Position numbers and translations under genes: made by a program. Under the pieces are notes generated by a model that ran no database searches, had not been told where the DNA came from, and worked only from the letters and a program-made list of their open reading frames with translations. DNA of 64,000 bases from Chrysoperla carnea. Its lineage: Eukaryota > Arthropoda > Insecta > Neuroptera > Chrysopidae. Positions 26,117-61,555 of this stretch are shown piece after piece. Location of the stretch: contig NC_058342.1 of NCBI RefSeq assembly GCF_905475395.1, forward strand, positions 23,656,640 through 23,720,639, written 5' to 3'. The first letter of the stretch is position 1. Every line of letters begins with the position of its first letter.

Positions 26117-26540
26117 ATGTTTATTGAGAACTCTAGACATAAAGCTGAAGATTTGCTAGTTGCTGTATTATCTGTTCTTCAGTTTTTTTATCTTGATCTC
26201 TCAGATTGTCGAAGTCAGTCATATGATAACGCGAATAATGTATCAGGGATTTATTCGGGCTTACAGGCAAGAATTCATGAAATTATATCTTGCAGATCAT
26301 GCTCCTTGTGCTGCTCATTCTATGAATTTAGTTGGAGTTCACGCAGTAGAATGCGCCCCAGAAGCTGCGTCATTCTTTCATACAGTACAAACTTTATACA
26401 ACTTTTTTACTGCATCGACGCATTGCTGGGAAATCTTACAGTCTCATACTGAAAAAAGAATTGCGTTAAAAACTTTATCTGCAACCAGATGGTCAGCTCG
26501 TTATGAAGCGGTTCTTTTTTCTGCAATTAATTAGTTATTC
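26117..26540 (+). pseudogene. hAT-type transposase fragment (ZMYM1-like), frameshifted
   Basis: One frame gives QSYDNANNVSGIYSGLQA and the next gives HAPCAAHSMNLVGV, then LYNFFTASTHCWEIL and LSATRWSARYEA. Together these are the conserved middle of hAT transposases of the kind often labelled zinc finger MYM-type 1-like. A one-base frameshift lies near 26,275, and only about 125 codons remain, with a stop after FSAIN. The zinc finger and the dimerisation domain are gone. It is a relic. Confidence 0.8.
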
Positions 26541-32855: not shown

Positions 32856-35800
32856 ATGTCTGATCCAAATAAAAGACGAATTTCAACTGAATACACGCTA
32901 ATATCAAGTCCTGTGCTAACAAATTTAAAAAAACAACTCCAAAAAACAACATCGATAAATGTGTTACCCAAACCGTATGAAGTGAAACGAAAAAAACAAC
33001 GGAGAAAAATACAATTGGATCCACAATTGTATGCTAAAGAACAATTACGTTTATTGGCATTTGAAACACCTGAAGGTCATTTGGATAAACGTACTGAAAA
33101 ACGAATTAAGAAATTGATACCAACACCTTTATGTGAACAATTTCCACCATTGTTTTCTAATTTATTTCGAAGTATACAAGATGAATATGGTATGTATTTA
33201 ACCCTTTTTTGAACTAACCCAGAAGTATTTTTTACTAACCCAAGCGAAAAATGAGCTGATGAAATATATTTTTTTTACAAGCTTTTATTTAGTTTCGCCT
33301 ATCCCGTTGTCTGTCTGTTATCAAATTTTGCAAGTCAAATTTGATCCACTTCCCAGTTTCCGATTGAGCTGAAATTTTGCATGCAAATTTAGTTTGGATA
33401 GCAATGCATGGCATTCCATTGGCATTTTCCCATCGCTTCCACCATATTTGATATATATATATACCTATACATTTTTTTTAGTATAAAATTAAAAATTTTA
33501 ATAAAAAATACTTTTTAAGGGACAAGCTTTTATTTTATAAAAAGTAGAAAATAATTTTATCTATGAGTCACTCATACCCGACTATTTGTAAAAGCTTGAG
33601 GCGCATAATATCAAGAATGAATAGAAAAATAATTAAGCATGTGGAGTAGATTAGGAGTTCCAATTCATTTTTGATATTTTAAATTGAGCGCCTCAAGCTT
33701 TTTCAAATAGTCGGGCAGGTGCGGATTAAAGGGGGGGAGGCACAGGGGTCATGAATGCATTTTATAATTGGCTTTTTAAATTAACCATAAATATACTAAA
33801 TACACAATTCGGTTAAAAGTGATGAAAATGATTCTAAATTTGTTACTCGAGGATCTTTAGAGTCACGAATATCGACTCTTGGTGCCCAGGGTTCAAATTC
33901 GTTACTCGGGTGTTTTTGGGGTCACTGAATCGGGCACCAGGCACCTCGAAAATAAATTCTGTCACGATATTCGTTCTCAGCAGCCCCAAAAACCCCCGAA
34001 GTACGAGTTTGGACCGAATATATAACGAGTTTTCCGAAAACTCCAGGAGACGATGGCGATACCGTTTACCCTGGGCACCAGGTACCTTGGACATCAATTC
34101 TGACACGATATTCGTGTTCATCGATCTCAAAAACCCCCGAGGATCAATTTTGGAATCATTTTCATCACTTTTAATCGAACTGTGTATTTAGTATATTTAC
34201 GGTTTAGTATATTTCGCGATCCTTTGGACCGCGAGGACATAGGTGGTGGCCCATGTCGCTCACGTTACTTTAATCTTCAGTTAATTAATTTATTTTTTAC
34301 AGGTAAATTTATCAAAACAATCGCAGCTGAACAGAAAATCGTTACAGAAGCTCCACAAATCGTTCCAATTACTATAAACGATTATGGCATAAAATTTTCG
34401 AATGATGAATTAATCGAACGTAAAGCTTACTTAGAAAGGCGTTTATTTATCACAACGCTCTTAATGCGTTCGATTAATTACAAATCATGCACACAGTACT
34501 TAGAAACTTTAATCGAATTCGATAGTTATCGAGATAATAGTAAAAGTATTCAAATCGCTGTCCTTCGAGCACGAATTCGAGAAGATCTTGAAAATGGTAA
34601 ATCACAAACAATTCATTTATTATGTAAACATACAAATTCATTAATCGAATCTAAAAAATTACCAAAATTTGTCGACATCGATTTAATGTATGTATATTCA
34701 TCATGCGTAAAACACTTTCTAAGTTTAAAAATTATGGAATCACTTTATCGGACTGTAGAAAATTTTATCCATGTTTTACATAAGCCGGAGAAAGTTCCAT
34801 TGTTAAAATTTCAATTACAAGTAACCAATGAACTCGAATTAATACCGAATTGTGGACAAGTTTTAAAATTTTATCACAGTTTAATCGAAATATTCGGAAT
34901 CCATGAAATGGAATCAAATCAATTGGGACGTTTAAAAATTGAAATACCTATGTATTTATCAGAATGGGCTCACCAGGAAATTGATATCTCAATTGAGAAT
35001 TTAGTAAAACCCTTACAAGATCATATTGTTAATCTCGATGCGACCTATTCTCAATTTTGGAACGATGAATATATCAACGATTTAAAGAATTACTACAAAA
35101 ATCATACTTTCGAACAATGTAGCGAAAAATTTCTAGAGTTGCAAACTTTTAAAACAAAAGTGACCCAATTATTCCCGTACGAATATTTTCAAATTGGAAT
35201 TTTGGAGCAAACCAGCTTTATTGAGACAATTCAGCGAAAACTGAGTATATGTATTGAGAATGTTTTAAATTCACTAGTTTTGAATAACTTCGAAACAAAT
35301 CAAAATATTTGTAAGGAGTTTAAAACAATTGCACAGAAAGCATCGAAAATTTCTGACAATACCGAAGATTTAATGAACATGAATAAATTTATGTTGCACG
35401 TAAAAAATGAACGTATTCATGAATTACGAAAAAATGTTGAAAATTCGATGCTACAAGCTACCGAACTACTTTCGATGACAACAATTAATCCCGAACATAT
35501 TGCGTTAAACTCGAAGACAATTGTTTGGACACGTCGAATTGATAAAATCTTGGAAAAGAATACGGTAATGTTTGAACAGCGTAAAAACGAATTAGAAGAA
35601 GAAATGCAGAAACAGATTGATGAGCTAACGCGAGATGTGCAACATTTTGCGAATAACTTACAAATTTTAGATGATATGTCCGATTGTACAAAAACGGGAA
35701 CGTATGTGAATCATTTAAAAAAAATGCGAGCAACTATTGAGATATTTGATAAGAAACAGAAATGGATTAATCATGAGGAAGTTTTATTTAAATTTCCACC

Positions 35801-38800
35801 ATCCACATTTACCGATTTGGAAGATTGTAAGGATATTATATATACATTCACGGATCTAATAATGCAATGTCATAGTTGGTTACGGACGTATTCCGTGTTT
35901 ATGAATGGACCTTGGGAGAATTTATCCTATGAATATGTGCTGACTTCCGTGGAAAAGTATAAAGAAACTTTCATGAAGTATCAAAAACAGTATAACACGA
36001 AAATTCGACAACAAATTACTGATAATGTTGCACGACGATTTAAAGGTAAATTTTTTATTTTGTCTTTTAATCGTGTGGACGATTGACATTCTTGGTATGG
36101 ATTTTAACAAGGCCAGAAATTTGGGAAGCACTCGCGTAAATCGTTCGGAAATCTTTAGTCGAGTTATGAGAGATTTGCACACGCGTTCTGCACATGCGTC
36201 AAATATTTCACGCGTTAAATATTCTTTATCAAATGATACTAAGTTTAGTTCCAAGTTTGTAACGCTTAAAAATATTGATACTACGAAATTTTGGTATAGT
36301 TCATAAAATCACCTAAAGAGTCCATTTCCGGTTATCTGTCTGTCCGTCTGTTAGCACGATAAGTCGATAACTCAAAAACGAAAAGAGATACCAACTTTTA
36401 CAGCGTGGTCAGGACGTGAAAGTGAGACTAGGTTCGTAAATAATCCTAGTCAACAACAAAGGTCAATTAGGCCTTGGATCCGTAGGACCCATATTGTAAA
36501 CCGTTAGAGATAGAACAAAAGTTTAAATGTAAAAAATGTTTTTATAATAAAATAAACAACTTTTGTTTGAAACATTTTTTCATAAACATCACTGTTTATT
36601 CGTGATGGCGCAAATTAGGACAAAATTTTTGTGTCCATTTACTCCAAAACTTTAAGGATAGGGAGTTGAAAATTTGCAGGGAACTTCAGCTAGTGATCTT
36701 GTGAAATATTCTTGAAAAATGAAAAACAAATTCAAGAAAATACTTTCGAAAATTTTCAAAGTGTTGGTTTTAAAACTCTTCTGGTTTTTAAGCACTGATA
36801 TTCAATACATTCTATACAGGGCATTACAACAATTAACTCAGTCAATTGTTTGTTTTCACTTATTTTATGTAAGTACAGACTTCAGCATTACCCTCAAGCA
36901 TCATTTTTTCTAATAAAATTTCTTCTTCAATTTCTTCAAGCATTAAAAGACATAATAGAATATCGCAGGCACTCATTTTACTTCAATTTAGTTAACTTCA
37001 CTTTGAAGGACTGAACACAGCTGACGCTTCAGAAGAAACAATCAAATACGCGTTAGACGCTCAGCGTCAGACGCTCAGCGACAGACGCTCAGCGTCAGAC
37101 GCTCAGCGCCAGACGCTCAACGTCAGACGCTTGCTTCAGCCACAGCATAGAAATCATAACTTTATTGTGTTTTTAATTTGCTTGTTCAGAATCACTGGGT
37201 TAGTTCCCCATTCTTTTCCCTTTTCTTGAAGTCTCTCAATTTATTTCGCCGCACTTACTTGAAGACATTGTTCGAATTTGATTCTTTTAGGTATGGTTGA
37301 CGATCCAGACTTTCATAATCATCCAGCACCGTTGAAACTATGTACAACAGCCTTAAAATATTTGACCGATTTTGAACCAAACATTGAAAAAATTCGAATC
37401 CTGTGTAATCCAGCCTTGTTACAACGTCATTGGGATGAAATGAGTGTGGTAATTGAGCGTGATATTACACCGAACGCTGGCACAACATTAGATAAAGTGA
37501 TTAAAGAAAATTTACAACCATATTTAGAACAATTTGATATAATCAGTGTGGCAGCAATGAAAGAATTAAAATTACAAGAGAATTTACATATTATGAAAGA
37601 ACAATGGGAAACAATTGCTTTTGAAACGCAACAATGGAAGCAAAGTGAATTAATGATTTTATATAATTTGGATAAAATTTATACGATTTTAGATGATCAT
37701 ATTATTCAAACGTTAACAATGCGTGGATCAGTGTTTGTGAAGCCTGTTGAAAATGAGGTACATTTACTTAGTAGAAAATTTATTTAGGGATGGTCAAGGG
37801 CGTCGCTTGCCGATGGCAAAGAGGGGGTAGGTTGCTTTATGGAGAATGGGACAAGTATGAATTGTAAGTACAAGTAAAAACATAGGAGATAAAACGCGAA
37901 AATTTATTTTAAATTTTAAAATTAGACCTATTTTATCATTCATTTACCTGAAAACAGTCGTTGATCTAAAGTTAAATTTTGGGGGGTCACAGACAGTGGA
38001 ATCCGGATTTTTACTGGTGAGAACCGTGACCTTTTTTTGTGTTTTCGTATGAGGGTCTTACGAAAGACGATTAAATTTATTTTTGTACTATTCTTTTATC
38101 CTCCCTTTCATCGTATAGGCGCCCTTTTCCTAAAAACTTGTTGTCAAAAATGATTTTATTTAGTTTTTGTACCCTATATATGAAATATATCGGAGTATAT
38201 TAAGTTTAATCCCAAGTTTGTAACGCTTAGAAATATTGATGCTACAGACAAAATTTCGATATAGGTATTCATAAAATTACACTAATTAGTCCATTTCCGT
38301 TTGTCTGCCCGTTAACACGATAACTCATTAACGAAAAGAGGCAACATGGGTACATTGGGTCTTGTATACCGCAACAGGAAGAACAAGAGTTTAAATGTAA
38401 ATTTATTTCATTTAAAAGAGTAAAAAACTTTTGTTTGAAACATTTTTTCATAAATAACTTTGTTTTCCCGTGAGAGTCCAAATTATGGCGAAAATTTAGT
38501 TCCCTTTTTCTCAAAACCTATAAAAGAAGAAAAGATAGTTAGTTGAAAATTTGTTGGTAGTATTCATTCAAATTTCATACTCTCCGATAACTGAAATTTT
38601 TAATTCAGTAGAATTTTAGTTTTTTAAAATGGGTGCTTTGAAACATTTTTGTGAATCTCTAGAGGGGGCAGCTGCCTCTACCTACCCTTCCTTGGCGACG
38701 ACCATGAGGACGGATAATTAACATTTTCTTTAGTTTTGAACCCGAGGACTCTGTGCGAAAAGAGGGTACCTTCCTACATTTTTTCCTCAATAACTCCCTA

Positions 38801-41800
38801 CGGCCAATTAATTTTAAAAAATTTTACTAGCAGTTTGGCTGTGTATATCTTAAAACGATGCCAATTTCTTGTTTTTAATATTTCAGGTACGAATATGGTA
38901 TGAAACATTACTTGAAATCCGTGCAAATATAGAGATTTGGTATCGATTACAAAATAACTGGTTACATTTAATACCAGTCTTAACCTGTGATTATATTTCA
39001 TGTGAGTTACCAGATGAAACTGAATGGTTTCAAACAGTTGATGGTCAACTTCGAATGTTTCTTGAAACTGTTAAAAACACACAAAACGTTGCTAAAATCA
39101 CCACCAATATCGAGCTAAATCGGCAACTCCTCGAAATTAATATCCTCTTAGATAAAATCAACAATGGAATTAACACTTTTATCGACGAAAAACGATTATA
39201 TTTTTCACGATTTTTCTTCTTGTCGAACAATGAAATCTTACGAATTTTATCTTACTCGAAATGTATTACGAAATTAATACCATTTGTACGAAAATGTTTC
39301 GAAAATGTTCACTCCATGAAAATAACCGACAATGTTATTGAATCCATTTCAAGTGAATTCGAAACGATTCAACTAAAAACGCCCATAGTGCGAAAGGATT
39401 TCAGTGTATGGACTCTATTTCGACAAATCGAAGATGAAATTTGTGAAACTATAAAGCAATATATTTATAAGGCGAGTCAGGATCATTATTTTATGTCACG
39501 CTTAAAATGGTTTCAAAAATGGCCACAACAAGTGATTTTAATTGTATCGAAATTTAATTGGACCAAAGAATGTGAGACATGTTTAACAAAGACCCCAAAA
39601 AATTTAATTACCTACAAAAACGATTTGGGGCAACAATTAAACGAGCTTACTCAAATGTTGCATTCGAACGATTTAACTTTTCAATTAAAATTAAAACTTG
39701 TTGAATTATATGCACAAAAATTACATAATCAATCGATTATCGATTATTTAATTGAGAATGAAATCGATTGTATTAGTTCGTTTTATTGGATGATACAGTT
39801 CCGGTATTATTGGGATCAAAAAGACGTCCATGTGCGATTACTTCAAATCGATAGATGTTACCAATATGAGTATTTAGGAGTAAAACCGCGTTTAGTACAA
39901 ACTCCAAACACTGAGCGCTGTTATCGTACATTTATGGCGGCATTTCAATTTCAATTATATGGCTGTTTAGAAAGTGCTGAAATATCGGGTAAAACTGAAA
40001 CATTTCACGATTTATCGAAGATTTTTGCTGTACAGTATAAAATCTACAATTGTCGTGCTAACTTGGAATATGACGCAGTTATACGTTTTATTAAGGGTAC
40101 CGTTTCTTCAGGGGCCTGGTTTTGTTTTGATGATTTTAATTACACGGAACTTGGAGTCCTTTCAGTTTTAGCACAATTTTTAAAGAATATTTCGCAAGCA
40201 ATTCGATTAAATACGGAGACAGTCAATATTCACGATAAATCTTTAAAGATGAAGCATTCATGTTTCATTGGTGTGACACTCGCTTGGGATTATCCAAGGA
40301 ATATACCCGATAATTTACGATTGATGTTTCGTAACTTTTATATTTGCGAACCAGATAAAAAAATTGTTTGCGAAACGCTGTTAGCTTCCTACGGTTTTAC
40401 CAACTATCAAAATTTATCGAGGAAACTACTATTATTATACGATTATTGCGCAGAAATGTTTCATGCAAAGTTGTATGATTTTCAAATACGTAGTTTAAAA
40501 GCGATACTAGTGACATCTGGTAGATGGAAAATTGAACATAACTTTAATGGAAATGAATATCAGATCATTTTAACAGAAATTATTAAGCGAAATATACCGC
40601 AATTGAATTTAAGTGACATTCCAAGATTTGAAAATTTGTTAAAAGAAATTTTTCCAAATTTGGAACTAAATTACACCAGTGAAGAAGATCGCACGTTGAT
40701 TGAATCCATTGAAAAAATTTGTATCGAAAAGCAAATCACTCTAACACAAGATATTTTACGAAAATTTGTCCAATTATATTGGCTCATCGAAAATAATCAT
40801 GGAATTTTACTTACAGGTGATGCATTTTCTGCAAAAAGTGTTTCGCTAGATGTAATTCGAACTTTACGTAGTGAACAAACCAAAAATGAAATTAAATCAA
40901 CACTATTATATCCAAAAAATTTGGAATTGAATCAAATTTTTGGTAAAGTTAACGAACATCCAGCGGTTATTATTGAAGGAATATGTGCGCAAATTTATAA
41001 TCGTAAACAAACAAAAAATCAAGTTAACGAAGAATGGATTATATATGACGGTCCAATTGAAAATATTTGGTTTAATTTCTTATATCCGGCATTAGATAGT
41101 TGTGGTCAAATTTGTTTACAATGCGCAGAAACAATATTGAAAACTGATCGATTAATAAATATATTTGAGACATCAAATATTGAGAATTTGTCACCGAATA
41201 TTATATCACGTTGCGGGATCATTTGCTTCGATACGGTACAATGGAAAATTATTTTCGAGTCTTGGATAAAACAGGTGAATCCACTTTGGGGTTCCAAATA
41301 TGTTGAATCGATTACCGATATGGTTAATTGGATTATTCCACCATGTTTGGAATTTATTCGAGCTCAAAAAGGTTTGTTATGGATTTTTATGAATACTAAC
41401 GTGGAAGCAGAAGTCGATAAAGTCTCCCCTCATGAAGCTTTACAATAAAAATTATTTTGAATTCGTTCAGAATTACTTAAAGCTATGCGAAGACCCCCCG
41501 GCCATAAAAACCTTGAATAAAACATTTTAAATATAAAAAATAAACAACTTTTGTTTGAAACATTTTTTCATAAAGATCACTGTGTACCCGTGAAGGCGCA
41601 AATTAGGGCAAAATTTTGGAGTAAATTTTCTCCAAAACTGTAAAAGATAGGGAGTTGAAAATTTTCAGGTAGCTTCAACTAGTTAAAATTGATGGTTAAA
41701 TGAGTCTAATTTTAAAATAAAAACAAATTTTACGTTTTTTGTCCTATATTTTTACTTGAACATACCTAGAATTCATAATTTTCTTATTCTCCATAAACCA

Positions 41801-44800
41801 ACTTGCCCCCCCTTTGCCATCGGTGCAAAACATTTAATTTTTTCTTTTCCTTTCAGGTTTTCATTTATATTTAAGTGATACAAATTTAATTCGTTCGACC
41901 TTAATACTAATGGAAATGATTCTAAACGACGCATGTAACGAAAATATGGAAGACATTAAACACGTTTACAGTTGGATTCAAGCCACATTCTATGGATCAT
42001 TGATCTTAAACATTTCAATACTTTTAGAATCTAGTTTTCATGAAAAATACGACGAATTTTATCGAAATTTATGGCGAAATCAAAATAAAAACTATCCACA
42101 ACCGTCTTCGCTAGATCGTCTCGATTTTTCGTTACCCTCAGAAGGTTTATCTATCGATTATTTTTATATATTCAAGGTAAAAGGTGTTTGGAAATATTGG
42201 CCAGACATAATAAAATCACCCAAAATTGAAGAGATTAATTTAAGCGAACAAATAGTTCCTACATTAAATTCAGCGCGCCAAATGTATTTACTTGAAATGC
42301 ATATTCGGCATAAAAATAAATTTTTATTAATTAGTGACACGGGTTGTGGAAAAACTCGATATGTGAAAGATTTACTAACAAATAAATTACCAAAAAATGA
42401 TTTTGAGAAAACTTACATACATTTAACGCGAAAAATGTCAAGTCATGATGCAATTGATTTATTTTTATCGAAATTCGAAAAGTTAACTAGCAGTAAATAT
42501 GGTGCATCCCCAGGAAAAACTCGTGTCGCTTTTGTCGATGATATACATTTATCCATCCGTGATGAGTCTGCAAGTCAAGCACCGATTGAATTAATCCGCC
42601 AATATTTCGACCATCAGTTTTGGTACAGCGAAAAAGAAAATCGAAAAATTACAATCCAAAATGTTTTATTTATCGGTGCAATTGGATTTATTGGGGGACA
42701 ATTACCAAATATTTGTCAGCGATTTTTACATCATTTTACACCATACATTCTACCAATGATCGAAAATGATAGTTTAGAGAAAATTTTCAGTTGCATTTTG
42801 TTCCATAACATGAAAGACAACGGTTTCCCCACGGATATTGTTGCGATTATTATGAATATTATCCAAGTTACGAATATAGTTTATACAAAAATTCGTACCG
42901 AATTAAAAGCTACCCCGAACACAAGTACCTACATGTTTAATTTATACGATTTTGAAAAATTAATCCGCGGATATTCACTGTTTCGTAAATCATCGATGAC
43001 CAGTAAAAAAATGTTACCACGTTTATGGGTTCATGAAATGTTACGAGTTTTCTCAGATCGATTAGCAACCGATCACAAGGAATGGCTTCGAGAACAATTA
43101 ATCGAACCGCTTCAGGAATATTTTAAGGATGATTTTCAAACGATCTATGAAAGTTCTGATCACGAAATTATCAACACGGTTTGTTATAGTGAAATTCTAC
43201 GTGATCCTAGATGTTACAAAGAAACATCTATTTCAGATTTCGAAAAAGTTCTTATAACTCAATTAGAGAACTTTAACTTAAAAAACAATCAGAAATTAGA
43301 TTTAACAGTACAAAATTACACCGCTCAACATTTTGTGCGCATATGTCGCATTTTAAGTCATGCGGGGGGGAGTGCGTTGTTAATTGGACAAAGTGGTTCG
43401 GGACGCGAATCGTTAATACGATTAGCGGCGAGTGTATTTGAATACAACCTCTATGTTCCCGATGTCAAACCGAATTATAACTTTGACGATTGGAGGCAGA
43501 ATATCAAGCAAGTATTATTACAAGTTGGAGGATTGGGAAAGAAAACAATTTTCCTAATCAAAGAGCATCACTTAAAGGATGATAATTACTTATACGATAT
43601 TCATAGTTTGCTTACCTTAGGGGAAGTGCAAAATATGTACACGATTGAAGAGTTACAGAAAATTTTGGAAACAACTCGCGTTGCCGCTCAAAAAGGGAAT
43701 CGATCCTTGGATGTCAGTGTTACAGATATAATGGACTTTTATGTAACACGATGTCGAGAAAATTTACATATTTTTATATGTTTATCTCCGAAATCGAAAA
43801 AGTTGCGAGACTATCTTCAATCATGTCCAGCATTGTTGAAGACATGTACGATTAATTACTTTGATGAATGGCCGCCATTTATGTATCAAAATATTGCTGA
43901 GAATATGGTTAGTTCACTAAATTTAACAACCGAATTAAAATCACCGTTACCGAATGCGTTTCGGATCTTTGATAGCACGATGCGAAAATTATCGAATGAG
44001 ATAAGTATACGGACAAATATACGGAACAATATCACATCTGGAGCGTATATGGACTTTTTAAAGTGCTACAAAACGCTCATGAATAAGAAGCAAAAGGAAA
44101 TTATGGACGCCCGGCAAAAATATCAAATGGGGTTGGATAAATTATCATTTGCAACCGAGCAAGTTGTGCTCCTACAAAACGAATTAGCGACCTTGAAACC
44201 ACAGCTAATACAAATGGGGGAACGAGCTGCAGAAATGGGTAAGGTGATCGAGCAAGAAACTATTGCTGTAGAGAAAGCAAGTCAACTTGTGCGTGAAGAA
44301 GAAAAAATAGCAAATGTACAAGCGGCCGCTGCACAGAGTTTAAAAAGTGAGTGCGAAGCTGATTTAGCACTAGCTATTCCTATCTTAGAAGATGCTATAA
44401 ATGCGTTGAATACGCTTAAACCAACTGATATTACGCTGGTTAAATCCATGAAAAATCCACCGGATACAATTAAATTAGTTATGGCAGCGGTATGTGTGAT
44501 TAAAGAAATTAAACCAGATCGATTACCCGACGCGGCTACTGGTAAAAAAATTATCGATTATTGGGGTCCCAGTAAGCGTATTCTAGGAGAAATGAACTTC
44601 TTACAACAGCTTAAAGAATTCGATAAAGATAATATTCCGCCAACTGTTATGGTAAAAATTCGTAAGGAATATTTACCAAATAAGGATTTCCAGCCTCATA
44701 TTGTTGCGAAGGCATCTAGTGCTGCCGAAGGATTATGTAAATGGGTAATCGCCATGGATTTATATGACAAAGTTGCAAAAGAGGTTGCTCCCAAAAAGGC

Positions 44801-47800
44801 AAAGTTAATGATCGCTGAAAATAAGTATGCAAATACGTTAAGTATTTTAAATGAGAAACGTCGAAAGTTTTCTGAATTAAAAGAACGTTTGGAGGCATTA
44901 AATCGACAATTAGCCGAAGCGAATCGAGATATGAAACGTGTGCAAGACGAAGTCGATATATGTACCAAAAAATACCAATGTGCACAAAAATTGGTAAACA
45001 GTTTGGAATCAGAAAAATCATATTGGACGTCCACTGTTGACGCACTTAAAAAAGCATACGATTATTTAATCGGCGATTTATTATTTTCATCGTGTATAAT
45101 CGCATATATGGGCCCGTTCTCATGGAAAAATCGTGAAATGATTTTTATTCATTTACGAGATCATTTAATCGAATTAAAGATCGAATTTTCGGATAATTTT
45201 AATTTTGCCCGTTTACTAAAAGATAAAAGTTCGAAGGAGGTTGTTTCGTATAAAATTCGTAATATTACCACCGATAATAAAACAATTATTCATAATACGA
45301 ATCGTCGATGTTTGTTAATCGATCCCCAACTACAAATGTATCATTGGATCCAAACGGTTGAGACAAATTTGGAAATTGTGAAAATCACTGATCAGAATAT
45401 AATGGAAACTTTAACGCAAAACCTGAAAATTGGACGGCCTATGTTAATATCAAATTTAAAATTAAACGTTGATGTTGCGTTGATGCCATACTTATGTCAA
45501 AATTTTTACGAGCGTGACAATCAAACGTATTTAAACGTGAACGCAACCGAAATTCCTTTTAATCCAGACTTTCGATTATATTTAACCACAACTTTACCGA
45601 ATCCCCAATACAGTGAACATATCTCACATTACGTGAATATTATTTACTGTCCGATTACGAAATTTTCTTTAACGGATCAACTTCTTAACATTTTGGTAGC
45701 CAAGGAAAATAACGATTTATATGTAAAACATAAAAATACGATCCAGGAGACGTTAAATTTTAAAATAAAATTAAAAAATATTCGATATAACATTTTAAAA
45801 ACTTTAAGCGAATCAAAAACGAATATTTTAGATGATGAGTATGCGATTGATACTTTGGATCGATCAAAAATTGAACTTAAAATCACTCAACAAGATCAGA
45901 TTACAACCGATAATGAGTTGAATAACATTGAAATTATTTTACAAGAATATAAACCGGTTTCGGTCCACGGTGCAACCGTTTACAAGTGTTTACTATCGTT
46001 ATATAATCTCAATTATATGTATCAATATTCATTGAGATGGTACATGAACTTATTTGAGACATCAATCTCAAAAGCACCAAAATCGAAATTATTACCAAAA
46101 CGGATTGAGAATTTAATTGAAAATTTTGCGAAAACTGTTTTTAATAATATTTCCCGATCATTATTCTCAAAAGATGCACTTTTATTCTCATTTCTTCTTT
46201 ATTTGAGTACGATGAGCTTACAGAAAAAAATTGAACCTGAGCTTATTTCGATTTTTATTAAAAATCAAATTAAACGAATTGAGTTCACGATTGAAAAACC
46301 TCCATGGTTGGATTCCGAAGAGAAATGGAGGAATATCGTTTATTTATCCCAACTCAAACAATTTGCAGGTCTTGAGGAATCTTTTTTGAAGGATAAAGAA
46401 TGGGAGAAGTTTGTAACTAAACGCTTATTTTTACAATTTCCTTCTGAATGGGATCAAAAATTAAAATTATTTGAGAAATTAATTCTCATTAAAGTTTTAC
46501 TGCCGGAATGTACGTTAAATTATTTAAAAATCGTTGTATCCGAAGAATTAGGGAATAATTTTGTAATTCCCCCGTTATATAACATTGAGCGAACGTATCA
46601 AAGTTCGTATAACACTAAAATTATAGTTATTTTGACGACTCCGGATGTTGATCCTGTGATATCCGTACAAAAATTCGCGTTAAAAATGGGATTAACAACG
46701 AATTTCGAAACAATATGTTTTGGTACGCCCGATCAAACAGAAATCGCTGAAAATTTAATAAAAACCTTACAAAAATATGAATATTGGATATGTATACAAA
46801 ATTGTCATTTAGCACCAGAATGGATGCCAAAATTAGAAATGTTATGTGAGAATTTTAAACCAAATCCAAATTTTCGTTTATGGTTAATCACCGATATGAC
46901 CGAACATTTTCCGACGTATATTTTACAAAATTGTACGAAAGTCACGATTGATACACAGGATGGCTTTAAGGAGACGTTAATCGCAGGCTATAATTCCGAT
47001 TTAATTGGGAATACGGATTATTACAATCAATGTCCAGGATATGATAAAATGTTTCGACGGGCGATTTATAGTTTATGTTATTTTCATGCAATGGTTAAGG
47101 AACGTCAAAGATATGGACAACTAGCCTGGACTTATCCAGTCAAATTCAATAATTTCGATTTGAATATCTCGTTACGACAATTATCCGTTTATATTCGAAT
47201 GGAACATCGGATTCCGTTTTTATTAATGAATTACCTTATTAGTAACTGTAATTATGGAGGTAAAACCGTTAATTTTTGGGATCAAAGATGTTTAACCCAA
47301 TTACTCAACCAAGTTTTTAATGTTGATATAATCAAATACGATCTATGTTCATTTTACGATAATCAAATCGAGTATCGAGTTCCAAGAAAACTAGAACATT
47401 TTGATGTAATTAACCATATAAATAATATTCCAAAAATCCAACCGCCTGAAATTTATTGGCTCAACCAAAACGATGAGACTGTGAAAAACTTAAAAGAATT
47501 AAACTCCTTTATCCATAATATTTATTTAGTTAAAAACTATCAAAATCAATCCAGAAGTTTGAATAATAAAATCAATGAAACGATTAGCGAAACTATAAAT
47601 TCAATACCCAAGTTGGATCAAGTAATTGCGATTAAATCCAAATTTTATAATAAATTAACAAATGATAGCTTTAGTGATTTAGTTTATGGCGAAATGTTGT
47701 ACTTCGAAATGTTACTAGAGATTATGATCAAAGATTTGCATAACCTAAAAAGAGCGTTAAATGGATCGATTACGTTAACGGATGAATTAAACGTAATTTT

Positions 47801-48374
47801 TGAACGATTTCAAATGAATTATGTTCCAATAATTTGGCTAAACATTGCAATGAATTCCAAACATACATATCTCGGTGATTTTATCCAGAATGTGAAGCGA
47901 CGTTTTGATTATTTTTGGCAATGGTATGAAAACGAAACTATACCGAAAATATTCGATTTAACAATTTTCTTTTTGCCAAAAAAACTGTTGTACACAATTA
48001 TATTTGAATATGCTCTGAAAAGCTGTTTACCAATTGAACAAATATCGTTAGATTTTCGAATGGATGTCGATAATACCGATAGCTATTATTCTATTTCGGG
48101 ATTGTATATAATTGGAGCATGTTGGAATTGGGATACAAAATCTTTGGATTATGTAAAATCGGGTAATATTTACACAGAGATGCCAAATATTAGTGTGGTA
48201 CCGATTCAAGGTTCACCAATTGAAAATAATGAGATTTTTATATGTCCATTGTTTAAAACAATTTCCAAAAAATATGATAAATATTTAAATTTTATTTGGG
48301 AAATACCATTACGAACGATTTATTCGCCGGTTGTTTGGATGAAACGTGATGTATTTTTAGTTTGTCATCCATGA
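32856..48374 (+). CDS. axonemal inner-arm dynein heavy chain (DNAH3/7/12 class), five exons, 3,848 aa
   Basis: This is a microtubule motor subunit of ciliary or sperm inner arms. Exons: 32856-33189, 34303-36045, 37291-37757, 38887-41371, 41857-48374; all GT-AG, phases consistent (11,547 nt). Residues 1-850 are tail; linker follows (TMRGSVFVKPVENE near 840). AAA1 has RCYRTFMAAFQ, then SAEISGKT (1211-1218) for GPAGTGKT, CFDDFN (1261-1266) for CFDEFN, and FIGVT (1308-1312) for FITMN, so key Walker A, Walker B and sensor-I residues are lost. AAA2 is GDAFSAKS (1492-1499) with SRCG kept. AAA3 is SDTGCGKT (1836-1843) with FVDD (1902-1905). AAA4 is GQSGSGRES (2187-2195). The coiled-coil stalk with microtubule-binding domain (about 2420-2730; DKDNIPP, EGLCKWVIAMDLYDKVAK) is highly conserved. 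AAA5, AAA6 and the C-terminal domain follow, ending VVWMKRDVFLVCHP. Usual length is about 4,000; the tail is shorter here. The exact orthologue was not resolved. Confidence 0.9.
33577..33715. mobile_element. MITE family M3 in dynein intron 1
   Basis: The ends CCCGACTATTTGTAAAAGCT and AGCTTTTTCAAATAGTCGGG are inverted repeats, extended inward by TGAGGCGC / GCGCCTCA to about 28 bp with one mismatch. It is 139 bp long and non-coding. A degraded relative is at 13,389-13,470. Confidence 0.85.
33789..34198. mobile_element. foldback element in dynein intron 1 (about 410 bp)
   Basis: The left end AATATACTAAATACACAATT and the right end ATTTAGTATATT with TCATTTTCATCACTTTTAAT mirror each other over about 60 bp. 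The inside has repeated, partly mirrored GC-rich blocks (TGGTGCCCAGGG, CTGGGCACCAGG, CAAAAACCCCCGA), which create chance open frames on both strands. The apparent N-terminal 40 residues upstream of the splice acceptor at 34,302 come from this element and the intron, and are not dynein. Confidence 0.8.
36236..36863 (+). mobile_element. family D element in dynein intron 2
   Basis: It has AAGTTTAGTTCCAAGTTTG, GTCTGTCCGTCTG, ACTCAAAAACGAAA, AACAACTTTTGTTTGAAACA and ends TTAACTCAGTCAATTGTTTG. It is one of the longest copies and makes up half of the intron (36,046-37,290). Confidence 0.8.
37054..37131. repeat. 14-bp minisatellite, about 5.6 units, in dynein intron 2
   Basis: The unit is CAGACGCTCAGCGT with single-base variants (TAGACG.., ..AGCGA, ..AGCGC, ..CAACGT). 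It is GC-rich against an AT-rich background and 160 bp upstream of the exon 3 acceptor. A related GACGCTTC copy lies just upstream at 37,023. Confidence 0.9.
38170..38600 (+). mobile_element. family D element in dynein intron 3
   Basis: It has ACCCTATATATGAAATATAT, TTAATCCCAAGTTTGTAACG, AACTCATTAACGAAA and AAAACTTTTGTTTGAAACAT. It occupies much of the intron (37,758-38,886), in the same orientation as the copies in introns 2 and 4. Confidence 0.8.
41519..41690 (+). mobile_element. family D fragment in dynein intron 4
   Basis: It holds AACAACTTTTGTTTGAAACA, CACTGTGTACCCGTGAAGGC and GATAGGGAGTTGAAAATTT. Only the central part of the element is present, in a 485-bp intron (41,372-41,856). Confidence 0.75.
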
Positions 48375-53913: not shown

Positions 53914-60450
<6,537 letters not shown>

Positions 60451-61555
60451 CTGTAAATAAAAATTTGCAATTAAAAATTTAATAAATTTAATAAGCGAAA
60501 CAAAACATATATGCATTCCAAGCGTGGATCCACGCAGGGACATTCGAGGCCAAAGCCTCCTCCAAAAGTAAAGAAGTTAACTAATTAGCGAATAATTGAA
60601 CTCCCCTAGTCATAATACATGATACAGGTGGTTAGATTACAAATTTTCATAGAATGCCGATTGGATTCGTTTGAAATAATTTAAAGTACAACGCAATTTT
60701 TATGTAATGTCATAATAAATATCCTGATCAAACCAAACGTAATGTACTCACATATTGGGTTGACTACTAAATCAGAAGTATGTCTTTTTTAAACTAATAC
60801 TACAATTATTTCATACAGTAAAAACTAAAAGTAGCTTGTAAATAAAAAAAGTAATCGCTACATCTATAATGTATCAAGGTACGAAAGGAATATAGTTCCT
60901 ACCGGGTGTCCCACTTCACCTCTCGTTTTTCTCCCTATAATTGCTAGTTATAGAGACAATTAAAAATTAAGACATCACTCCCCCCCCCCCCCCCGATGCA
61001 AACTTTCATAAAATGCAGATGCCATTCATTTGAAAACGATTTGTCCACGTTTGCCGATCCAAAATTTTTGTTTGTCCACCTTTCAATTTTTAAATTTTGG
61101 ATAGTTTTTGGGTAAAAACTAATTTCCAAAGTTATTTTTGCCCGAAAAAAAGAAAAGTAGTCTGAAATCCTATACCAACCTAGGAAAATTTATGAGTAAA
61201 TTTATGTCTACATGAAAGAAGGAATAACGTCATATTTTTCCCCACTCAATCTTGATGATGTTTGTTTCCGATTCATTCTCGAAATAGTTCGAAGGTTTTG
61301 TGACACTGAGTAGGAGTCGAACTTCTTTAAAAATTATTTGATATGCAAATATTTATAACTTAATATTTAAATTACTTGTAAACAAATATTTTGTTTGTTT
61401 TAAGGAAAATTATTTATGAAATTCGCTCGATATCATGGAAAATATTTTATATTTGTTTAAAAAAGACTCATCTGTAATCGACATTGTTTACATTACTTAT
61501 AATATTACATGCCTTGAATGTAATTTAAAATTAAACAGAGTAAATAGACGTATAT
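60451..61555. other. noncoding stretch upstream of the ALDH4A1 exons found
   Basis: It may contain the missing first ALDH4A1 exon, which I could not find. A run of 15 C lies at 60,980-60,994, and family RC covers 60,757-60,930. Confidence 0.45.
60757..60930 (+). repeat. dispersed repeat family RC, copy 2
   Basis: It contains GACTACTAAATCAGAAGTAT, TTTTTTAAACTAATACTACA, AAAGTAATCGCTACAT and CTACCGGGTGTCC. The same blocks occur on the minus strand at 17,295-17,855. Confidence 0.6.

Follow-up and report, generated by a model that had tools for sequence, protein, structure and literature searches.

A DNAH12-type dynein duplicate of the lacewing Chrysoperla carnea with a degenerate motor site and a conserved stalk tip: a putative passive tether

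The stretch of Chrysoperla carnea DNA considered here, called the window, comprises 64,000 nucleotides of contig NC_058342.1 (forward strand, 23,656,640 to 23,720,639) and contains a full-length gene for an axonemal dynein heavy chain, in which the AAA1 ATPase site is degenerate and the tip of the stalk is well conserved. On the plus strand, between window positions 32856 and 48374, five exons, all with GT/AG ends, are spliced into a product of 3,848 residues (Table 1). No internal stop occurs in these 3,848 codons and the terminal stop is present; the frame is thus not disrupted as it would be in a pseudogene. The first-pass annotation of this DNA had given the span as 38887 to 48374, which covers exons 4 and 5 only, the real start being at 32856; its claim of a frame open for 3,848 codons is right, but across the spliced exons and not as one open reading frame. 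According to Pfam and to alignments with PDB chains, the domain order of a DNAH12 heavy chain is complete: tail, linker, six AAA domains, a stalk with the microtubule-binding domain (MTBD) between AAA4 and AAA5, and a C-terminal domain. Pfam dynein domains span the protein from the linker to the C-terminal domain, those in exon 5 being AAA_7, AAA_8, MT, AAA_9, Dynein_heavy, AAA_lid_11 and Dynein_C, and the Pfam search with the exon-2 tail piece (P0002), which as a PDB query includes some flanking intron residues, gave no match. Intron 2 harbors, at 37050-37131, about six 14-base units of a minisatellite (GCGTCAGACGCTCA).

Judged by its sequence, this is a diverged paralog of the gene for DNAH12, an inner-arm chain (inner dynein arm a, IDAa, in human), and an intact DNAH12 is also present in the genome. 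DNAH12 was the first PDB match for every query, namely the tail, exons 4 and 5 and two shorter pieces of exon 5. In phylogenetic trees, the window copy clusters with lacewing DNAH12, with an ultrafast bootstrap (UFBoot) value of 92 for the linker to AAA2 (795 columns) and of 100 for the whole motor (2,928 columns); a tree of the stalk alone (321 columns) gave no resolved placement. Approximately unbiased (AU) tests on six candidate trees rejected the three placements outside DNAH12 (basal to DNAH3/7/12, with DNAH3, or with DNAH7) under both LG+F+R4 and LG+C20+G4, and two alternative placements inside DNAH12 had p values of about 0.06 under the mixture model. The favoured position, as far as these alignments can tell, is as sister to lacewing DNAH12, with a duplication later than the split from vertebrates. 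The initial assignment to a DNAH3/7/12-type inner-arm chain is therefore supported by PDB matches, trees and AU tests and can be narrowed to a DNAH12 paralog.

The canonical lacewing DNAH12 (stretches L032, L009 and L028) lies at C6:22.308-22.327 Mb, about 1.4 Mb from the window gene on the same chromosome; the window is on the X chromosome, and the identity of C6 with X fits. It has seven exons and 3,997 residues, and 1,391 of 3,799 aligned residues are identical to the window protein. No near-identical second copy of the window gene was found among the matches listed (best 55 of 74, 22 of 161 and 6 of 6 candidates), only the gene itself appearing at 100%. As expected for an insect gene, no relatives were found in viral contigs, scanned once with the exon-5 protein, or in bacterial and archaeal genomes, scanned once with the exon-4 protein. 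The four window introns and the six of canonical DNAH12 have no position in common, the first window intron being located in a poorly aligned stretch; one window intron was read by eye to be only a few bases away from an intron that occurs in both genes of DNAH7 type, with a different base and phase. An origin as a retrocopy that later gained introns is not established, and neither is an old duplication followed by differential intron loss. The two DNAH7-type heavy chains are arranged in tandem at C1:115.14-115.19 Mb (L011, L012, L029, L030, L033, L034), and AAA1 is canonical in both.

AAA1 is described in PMC4047620 as the only nucleotide site conserved across all dyneins (this and the other PMC articles are cited from excerpts of their text). 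In the window protein, it departs from an active motor in all of its main motifs: a Walker A motif of the form GxxGxGK[ST], the catalytic Glu of Walker B and the Asn of sensor I (the roles of these last two are treated in PMC4879348) are all absent. The spliced translation bears out the first-pass reading of these motifs, SAEISGKT, CFDDFN with Asp1264 and FIGVT with Thr1312, at the very residues it had given. In addition, the loop after sensor I has lost the sequence PGYAGR and is two residues shorter in the alignment. A control panel was assembled from a search of the genome with the exon-4 protein (best 55 of 74 candidates), and the 17 stretches around its match places were read. An AAA1 P-loop occurs in 15 of them (L009-L023), and L024 and L025 have none of the three AAA1 motifs. 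Within the 15 loci, GPAGTGKT and DEFN are invariably found and TMNPGY is read in one frame in 14; in the remaining one, L015, an intron apparently interrupts the motif, and the aligned row reads ITMNPGY. Since GPAGTGKT and DEFN are kept at 15 of 15 other loci, the degeneracy is not a matter of chance, and the window copy is the sole degenerate AAA1 in this panel, which may be incomplete. Of the AAA1 core residues, canonical lacewing DNAH12 shares 185 of 217 with human DNAH12 and the window copy 92 of 214.

The extent of this change was assessed, within the single genome of C. carnea, by a relative-rate count in which changes on the window copy only are set against changes on canonical lacewing DNAH12 only, with human DNAH12 as the outgroup. 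Domain borders were taken from Pfam matches and motifs, those of the coiled coils CC1 and CC2 and of the MTBD being set at conserved prolines. Vertebrate rows come from gapped printed alignments, one of the gaps lying inside the MTBD; the PDB chain 9fqr_Xx, listed as 'putative malate dehydrogenase 1B', was taken as vertebrate DNAH3 from its near identity with 8j07_g3, and we assume that entry 8j07 is human and 9fqr cattle. The excess on the window copy is largest in AAA1 (122:10) and is also seen in the linker (95:25), AAA2 (83:12), AAA3 (70:22), AAA4 (76:18), AAA5 (67:18), AAA6 (84:22) and the C-terminus (137:36). The tail is not detectably accelerated (66:56), and the stalk as a whole is balanced (39:42), with 12:16 in CC1, 9:17 in the MTBD and 18:9 in CC2 (p=0.12). 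With vertebrate DNAH3 as the outgroup, which has no tail row, the counts are 117:4 in AAA1, 9:17 in CC1, 9:15 in the MTBD and 16:7 in CC2, and the ratio ranges from 2.4 to 6.8 in the other seven domains. Ratios of branch lengths on a fixed topology (40 bootstraps) are 12.5 (9.1-22.3) for AAA1, 1.0 (0.6-2.5) for CC1, 0.5 (0.2-1.0) for the MTBD and 1.7 (1.0-3.4) for CC2; for AAA2, the bootstrap range is unbounded above (5.7-418).

A second measure is the share of conserved columns, defined as those at which canonical lacewing DNAH12 agrees with both human DNAH12 and vertebrate DNAH3, that the window copy has kept. This share amounts to 93/207 in AAA1, 43/112 in AAA2, 58/107 in AAA3, 53/105 in AAA4, 78/130 in AAA5, 62/123 in AAA6, 65/135 in the linker and, counted without the Cc7b row because of its low coverage, 80/189 in the C-terminus. 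The stalk has kept 83/105, as against AAA1 a highly significant difference (Fisher p=5e-9). AAA1 is thus prominent by its rate and not by the share lost, because it is normally so conserved. Ring and linker are relaxed as a whole, and not AAA1 alone, and it is the stalk tip (CC1 and MTBD) that stands out. The proposal that the motor site has relaxed with microtubule binding preserved is upheld in that, measured against the canonical copy, no domain is as accelerated as AAA1, and CC1 and MTBD are unaccelerated.

In AAA2, the P-loop GDAFSAKS had been taken as a sign of decay. The motif is real, but it is a weak sign on its own, since human DNAH12 has GEPFAAKT at this place. Better evidence is provided by two inserts, H2 and PS-I, which according to PMC4047620 are responsible for bending the linker and show high conservation across the dynein families: their motifs WxDG and DDNKxL are both present in 16 of the 17 other rows, the 17th (L021) having no coverage there, and both are absent from the window copy. 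AAA3 and AAA4 had been called well kept, which does not hold: AAA3 retains GKT and, like its relatives, DD in Walker B, and AAA4 retains GSGR, yet both domains have kept only about half of their conserved columns. These remnants bear on the possibility that the protein is a slow or unusual motor with a weak AAA1 and a residual cycle driven from another site such as AAA3, which they would allow. We regard this as very improbable, as both domains are themselves accelerated, the linker-bending motifs of AAA2 are gone, and axonemal AAA3 is described as lacking the residues needed for hydrolysis (PMC4047620). Of the earlier wording 'slow or non-motile', the combined losses make the second term likelier and the first less so; the structural role suggested with it would be a matter of interpretation.

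The stalk had also been described as well kept, and this is true of CC1 (38/43 conserved columns) and of the MTBD (33/37), but not of CC2 (12/25). The MTBD of the window copy is identical to human DNAH12 at 65 of 93 residues, compared with 57 of 93 for the canonical lacewing copy, and over a wider core the figures are 77/107 and 67/107. In CC1 and MTBD, canonical DNAH12 (L028) itself does not evolve more slowly than the window copy, and its MTBD has a one-residue insertion relative to the window, human and DNAH3 rows. At four-fold sites in shared codons, window and canonical copies are identical in 10/28 cases in the MTBD, 8/21 in CC1 and 13/41 in AAA1, with 0.29 expected by chance. Synonymous sites are therefore near saturation while amino acids are kept, which points to purifying selection on CC1 and MTBD. 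Gene conversion as a cause of the kept stalk is unsupported, identity at four-fold sites being as close to chance in CC1 and MTBD as in other parts; a conversion long ago is still conceivable.

This pattern has to be weighed against the idea of a decaying duplicate or 'ghost gene', a name that has been given to DNHD1 (PMC8754002): a gene on its way to becoming a pseudogene, whose only remaining function would be to avoid a harmful truncated product. The acceleration of all ring parts, the linker and the C-terminus would agree with such a fate. However, 2,443 of 3,810 aligned residues differ between window and canonical copies without any stop having arisen, and the splice sites are intact. Constraint has not been lost uniformly, as in a pseudogene, for CC1 and MTBD evolve at or below the canonical rate and the tail is not accelerated, and selection for a harmless frame alone would not predict an MTBD that has stayed as close to human DNAH12 as that of the canonical copy. 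A ghost gene therefore seems quite unlikely.

Table 1. Positions of the exons, domains and motifs of the DNAH12-type gene within the window
Feature	Position	Strand	Basis or remark
Exon 1, coding start (tail)	32856..33189	+	ATG, GT donor
Exon 2, tail (docking region), DNAH12-type	34303..36045	+	best PDB match DNAH12, 103.5 bits
Exon 3, tail to linker	37291..37757	+	spliced gene model
Exon 4, linker, AAA1, most of AAA2	38887..41371	+	Pfam DHC_N2, AAA_6; best PDB match DNAH12
AAA1, residues 1173-1440	39859..40662	+	122 window-only vs 10 canonical-only changes
Degenerate AAA1 Walker A SAEISGKT, residues 1211-1218	39973..39996	+	GPAGTGKT at 15/15 other loci
Degenerate AAA1 Walker B CFDDFN, residues 1261-1266, Asp1264 replacing Glu	40123..40140	+	motif reading, alignment
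AAA1 sensor I FIGVT, residues 1308-1312, Asn to Thr1312	40264..40278	+	motif reading, alignment
AAA2 P-loop GDAFSAKS, from residue 1492	40816..40839	+	human DNAH12 GEPFAAKT
AAA2 H2 insert, WxDG motif lost	40933..40980	+	motif from PMC4047620 (excerpt); coordinates hand-counted
AAA2 PS-I insert, DDNKxL motif lost (DSCGQI)	41095..41130	+	motif from PMC4047620 (excerpt); coordinates hand-counted
Exon 5, end of AAA2, AAA3, AAA4, stalk and MTBD, AAA5, AAA6, C-terminal domain, stop	41857..48374	+	Pfam
AAA3 P-loop SDTGCGKT	42333..42356	+	relatives GPTGTGKS/T
Stalk coiled coil CC1, residues 2433-2544	44124..44459	+	conserved columns kept 38/43
MTBD, residues 2545-2655	44460..44792	+	as human DNAH12 at 65/93 compared residues
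Stalk coiled coil CC2, residues 2656-2735	44793..45032	+	conserved columns kept 12/25
Stalk base LVNSLESEK replacing LIGGLGGEK	44991..45017	+	alignment

The reading that we prefer, to which we would assign a probability of roughly two in three, is that of an ATPase-dead inner-arm DNAH12 duplicate, retained as a passive docking or tethering part. In its fuller form, it describes a naturally evolved pseudo-motor in which ATPase and power stroke have been dropped by selection and the docking tail, stalk tip and MTBD kept, so that, in some axoneme of the lacewing, a dynein arm has become a fixed tether between doublets; this version we hold to be probable, with somewhat more reserve. DNAH12 is described as the human IDAa chain, and the location of inner-arm dyneins as set by their divergent N termini (PMC10266980), and the window protein would dock in the axoneme as a DNAH12 arm through its kept tail. 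With the P-loop glycines, catalytic Glu and sensor-I Asn loop of AAA1 and the linker-bending motifs of AAA2 gone, it would make no power stroke. A dynein with nucleotide-free AAA1 is reported to have an open ring and a straight linker (PMC4879348), and the ring of the window protein may stay near this form, with strong microtubule binding. ATP binding normally alters the stalk, moves H1 down and frees the MTBD (PMC6629372); here, the neighbouring doublet would be held through CC1 and MTBD without ATP-driven release, and the chain might act as an ATP-insensitive tether or as an assembly scaffold.

The same tail could serve another purpose. The protein may assemble and bind microtubules but have as its main effect a competition with active DNAH12 over docking sites or subunits used by both, and in this way tune the number of active IDAa arms. 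In mammals, DNAH12 is stated to be required for the recruitment of DNALI1 and DNAH1 to the sperm flagellum, its stem being called critical for the interaction with DNALI1 (PMC11949491), and both this and the unaccelerated tail would suit a competitor. Competition alone does not demand the conservation of CC1 and MTBD, and we consider such a role unlikely, though sequence does not discriminate between it and a tether.

Several observations weigh against a passive tether. AAA1 retains GKT and AAA2 the arginine of SRCG, so that nucleotide may still be bound weakly. By the share of conserved columns, AAA1 is not worse than AAA2 or the C-terminus and does not stand out from AAA3 (p=0.12). CC2 is the less well kept part of the stalk, and its excess of changes, not significant with the proline borders, becomes 21:5 (p=0.0025) with borders about 16-35 residues further C-terminal; the glycines of the stalk base are less well kept too. 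The tail was aligned at about 20% identity to human, which makes its equal rate less certain than that of the stalk. Single-sequence AlphaFold models are of low confidence (mean predicted local distance difference test, pLDDT, 55.9 and 37.6) and give no support. Finally, an excerpt of PMC11949491 states that DNAH12 lacks an MTBD, which weighs on any MTBD-based role in this family; the statement may refer to a shorter isoform. The PDB chain 8j07_g1 (DNAH12, 3,960 residues), contrary to it, aligns through stalk and MTBD, the MTBD being assigned by homology.

Compared with known systems, the window protein is closest to DNAH12, which is its best PDB match, with which it shares a clade and the same domain order, and to which the MTBD aligns over its full length. 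It differs from it by the absence of the AAA1 catalytic and AAA2 linker motifs and by an accelerated ring, human and canonical lacewing DNAH12 being intact at AAA1. Dhc62B, taken by description only as the Drosophila counterpart, is listed for chordotonal neurons and testis in PMC6367277. DNHD1, also compared by description only, is likewise a heavy chain of dynein descent that is suspected not to work as an ordinary motor (PMC8754002); the window gene, in contrast, is paralogous to DNAH12 and has kept its stalk tip, and orthology between the two is unlikely because of this DNAH12 affinity. Among the matches listed, no literature title or abstract opening describes a naturally AAA1-dead axonemal heavy chain. 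Outside the dyneins, there are non-catalytic kinesin relatives, Vik1 and KIF26, in which the motor fold is retained for microtubule binding without ATPase; these belong to the kinesin family and have no homology to dynein.

Elsewhere in the window, three of the four open stretches tested on the minus strand between 54447 and 60470 (54447-54854, 58004-58243 and 60108-60470) match the aldehyde dehydrogenase family, and presumably belong to a delta-1-pyrroline-5-carboxylate dehydrogenase gene; the fourth (59272-59508) gave no match to this family. On the plus strand, an open stretch at 26160-26534 looks by eye like a transposase fragment, and the Pfam search with it gave no match.

A full-length axonemal chain that lacks a working AAA1 but has both attachment ends would be a natural experiment on the roles of dynein arms besides force, such as docking, spacing, stiffness and assembly. 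Moreover, the comparison of the AAA1 rate with the MTBD rate provides a simple scan by which further pseudo-motor dyneins may be found, and the system would be testable in an insect.

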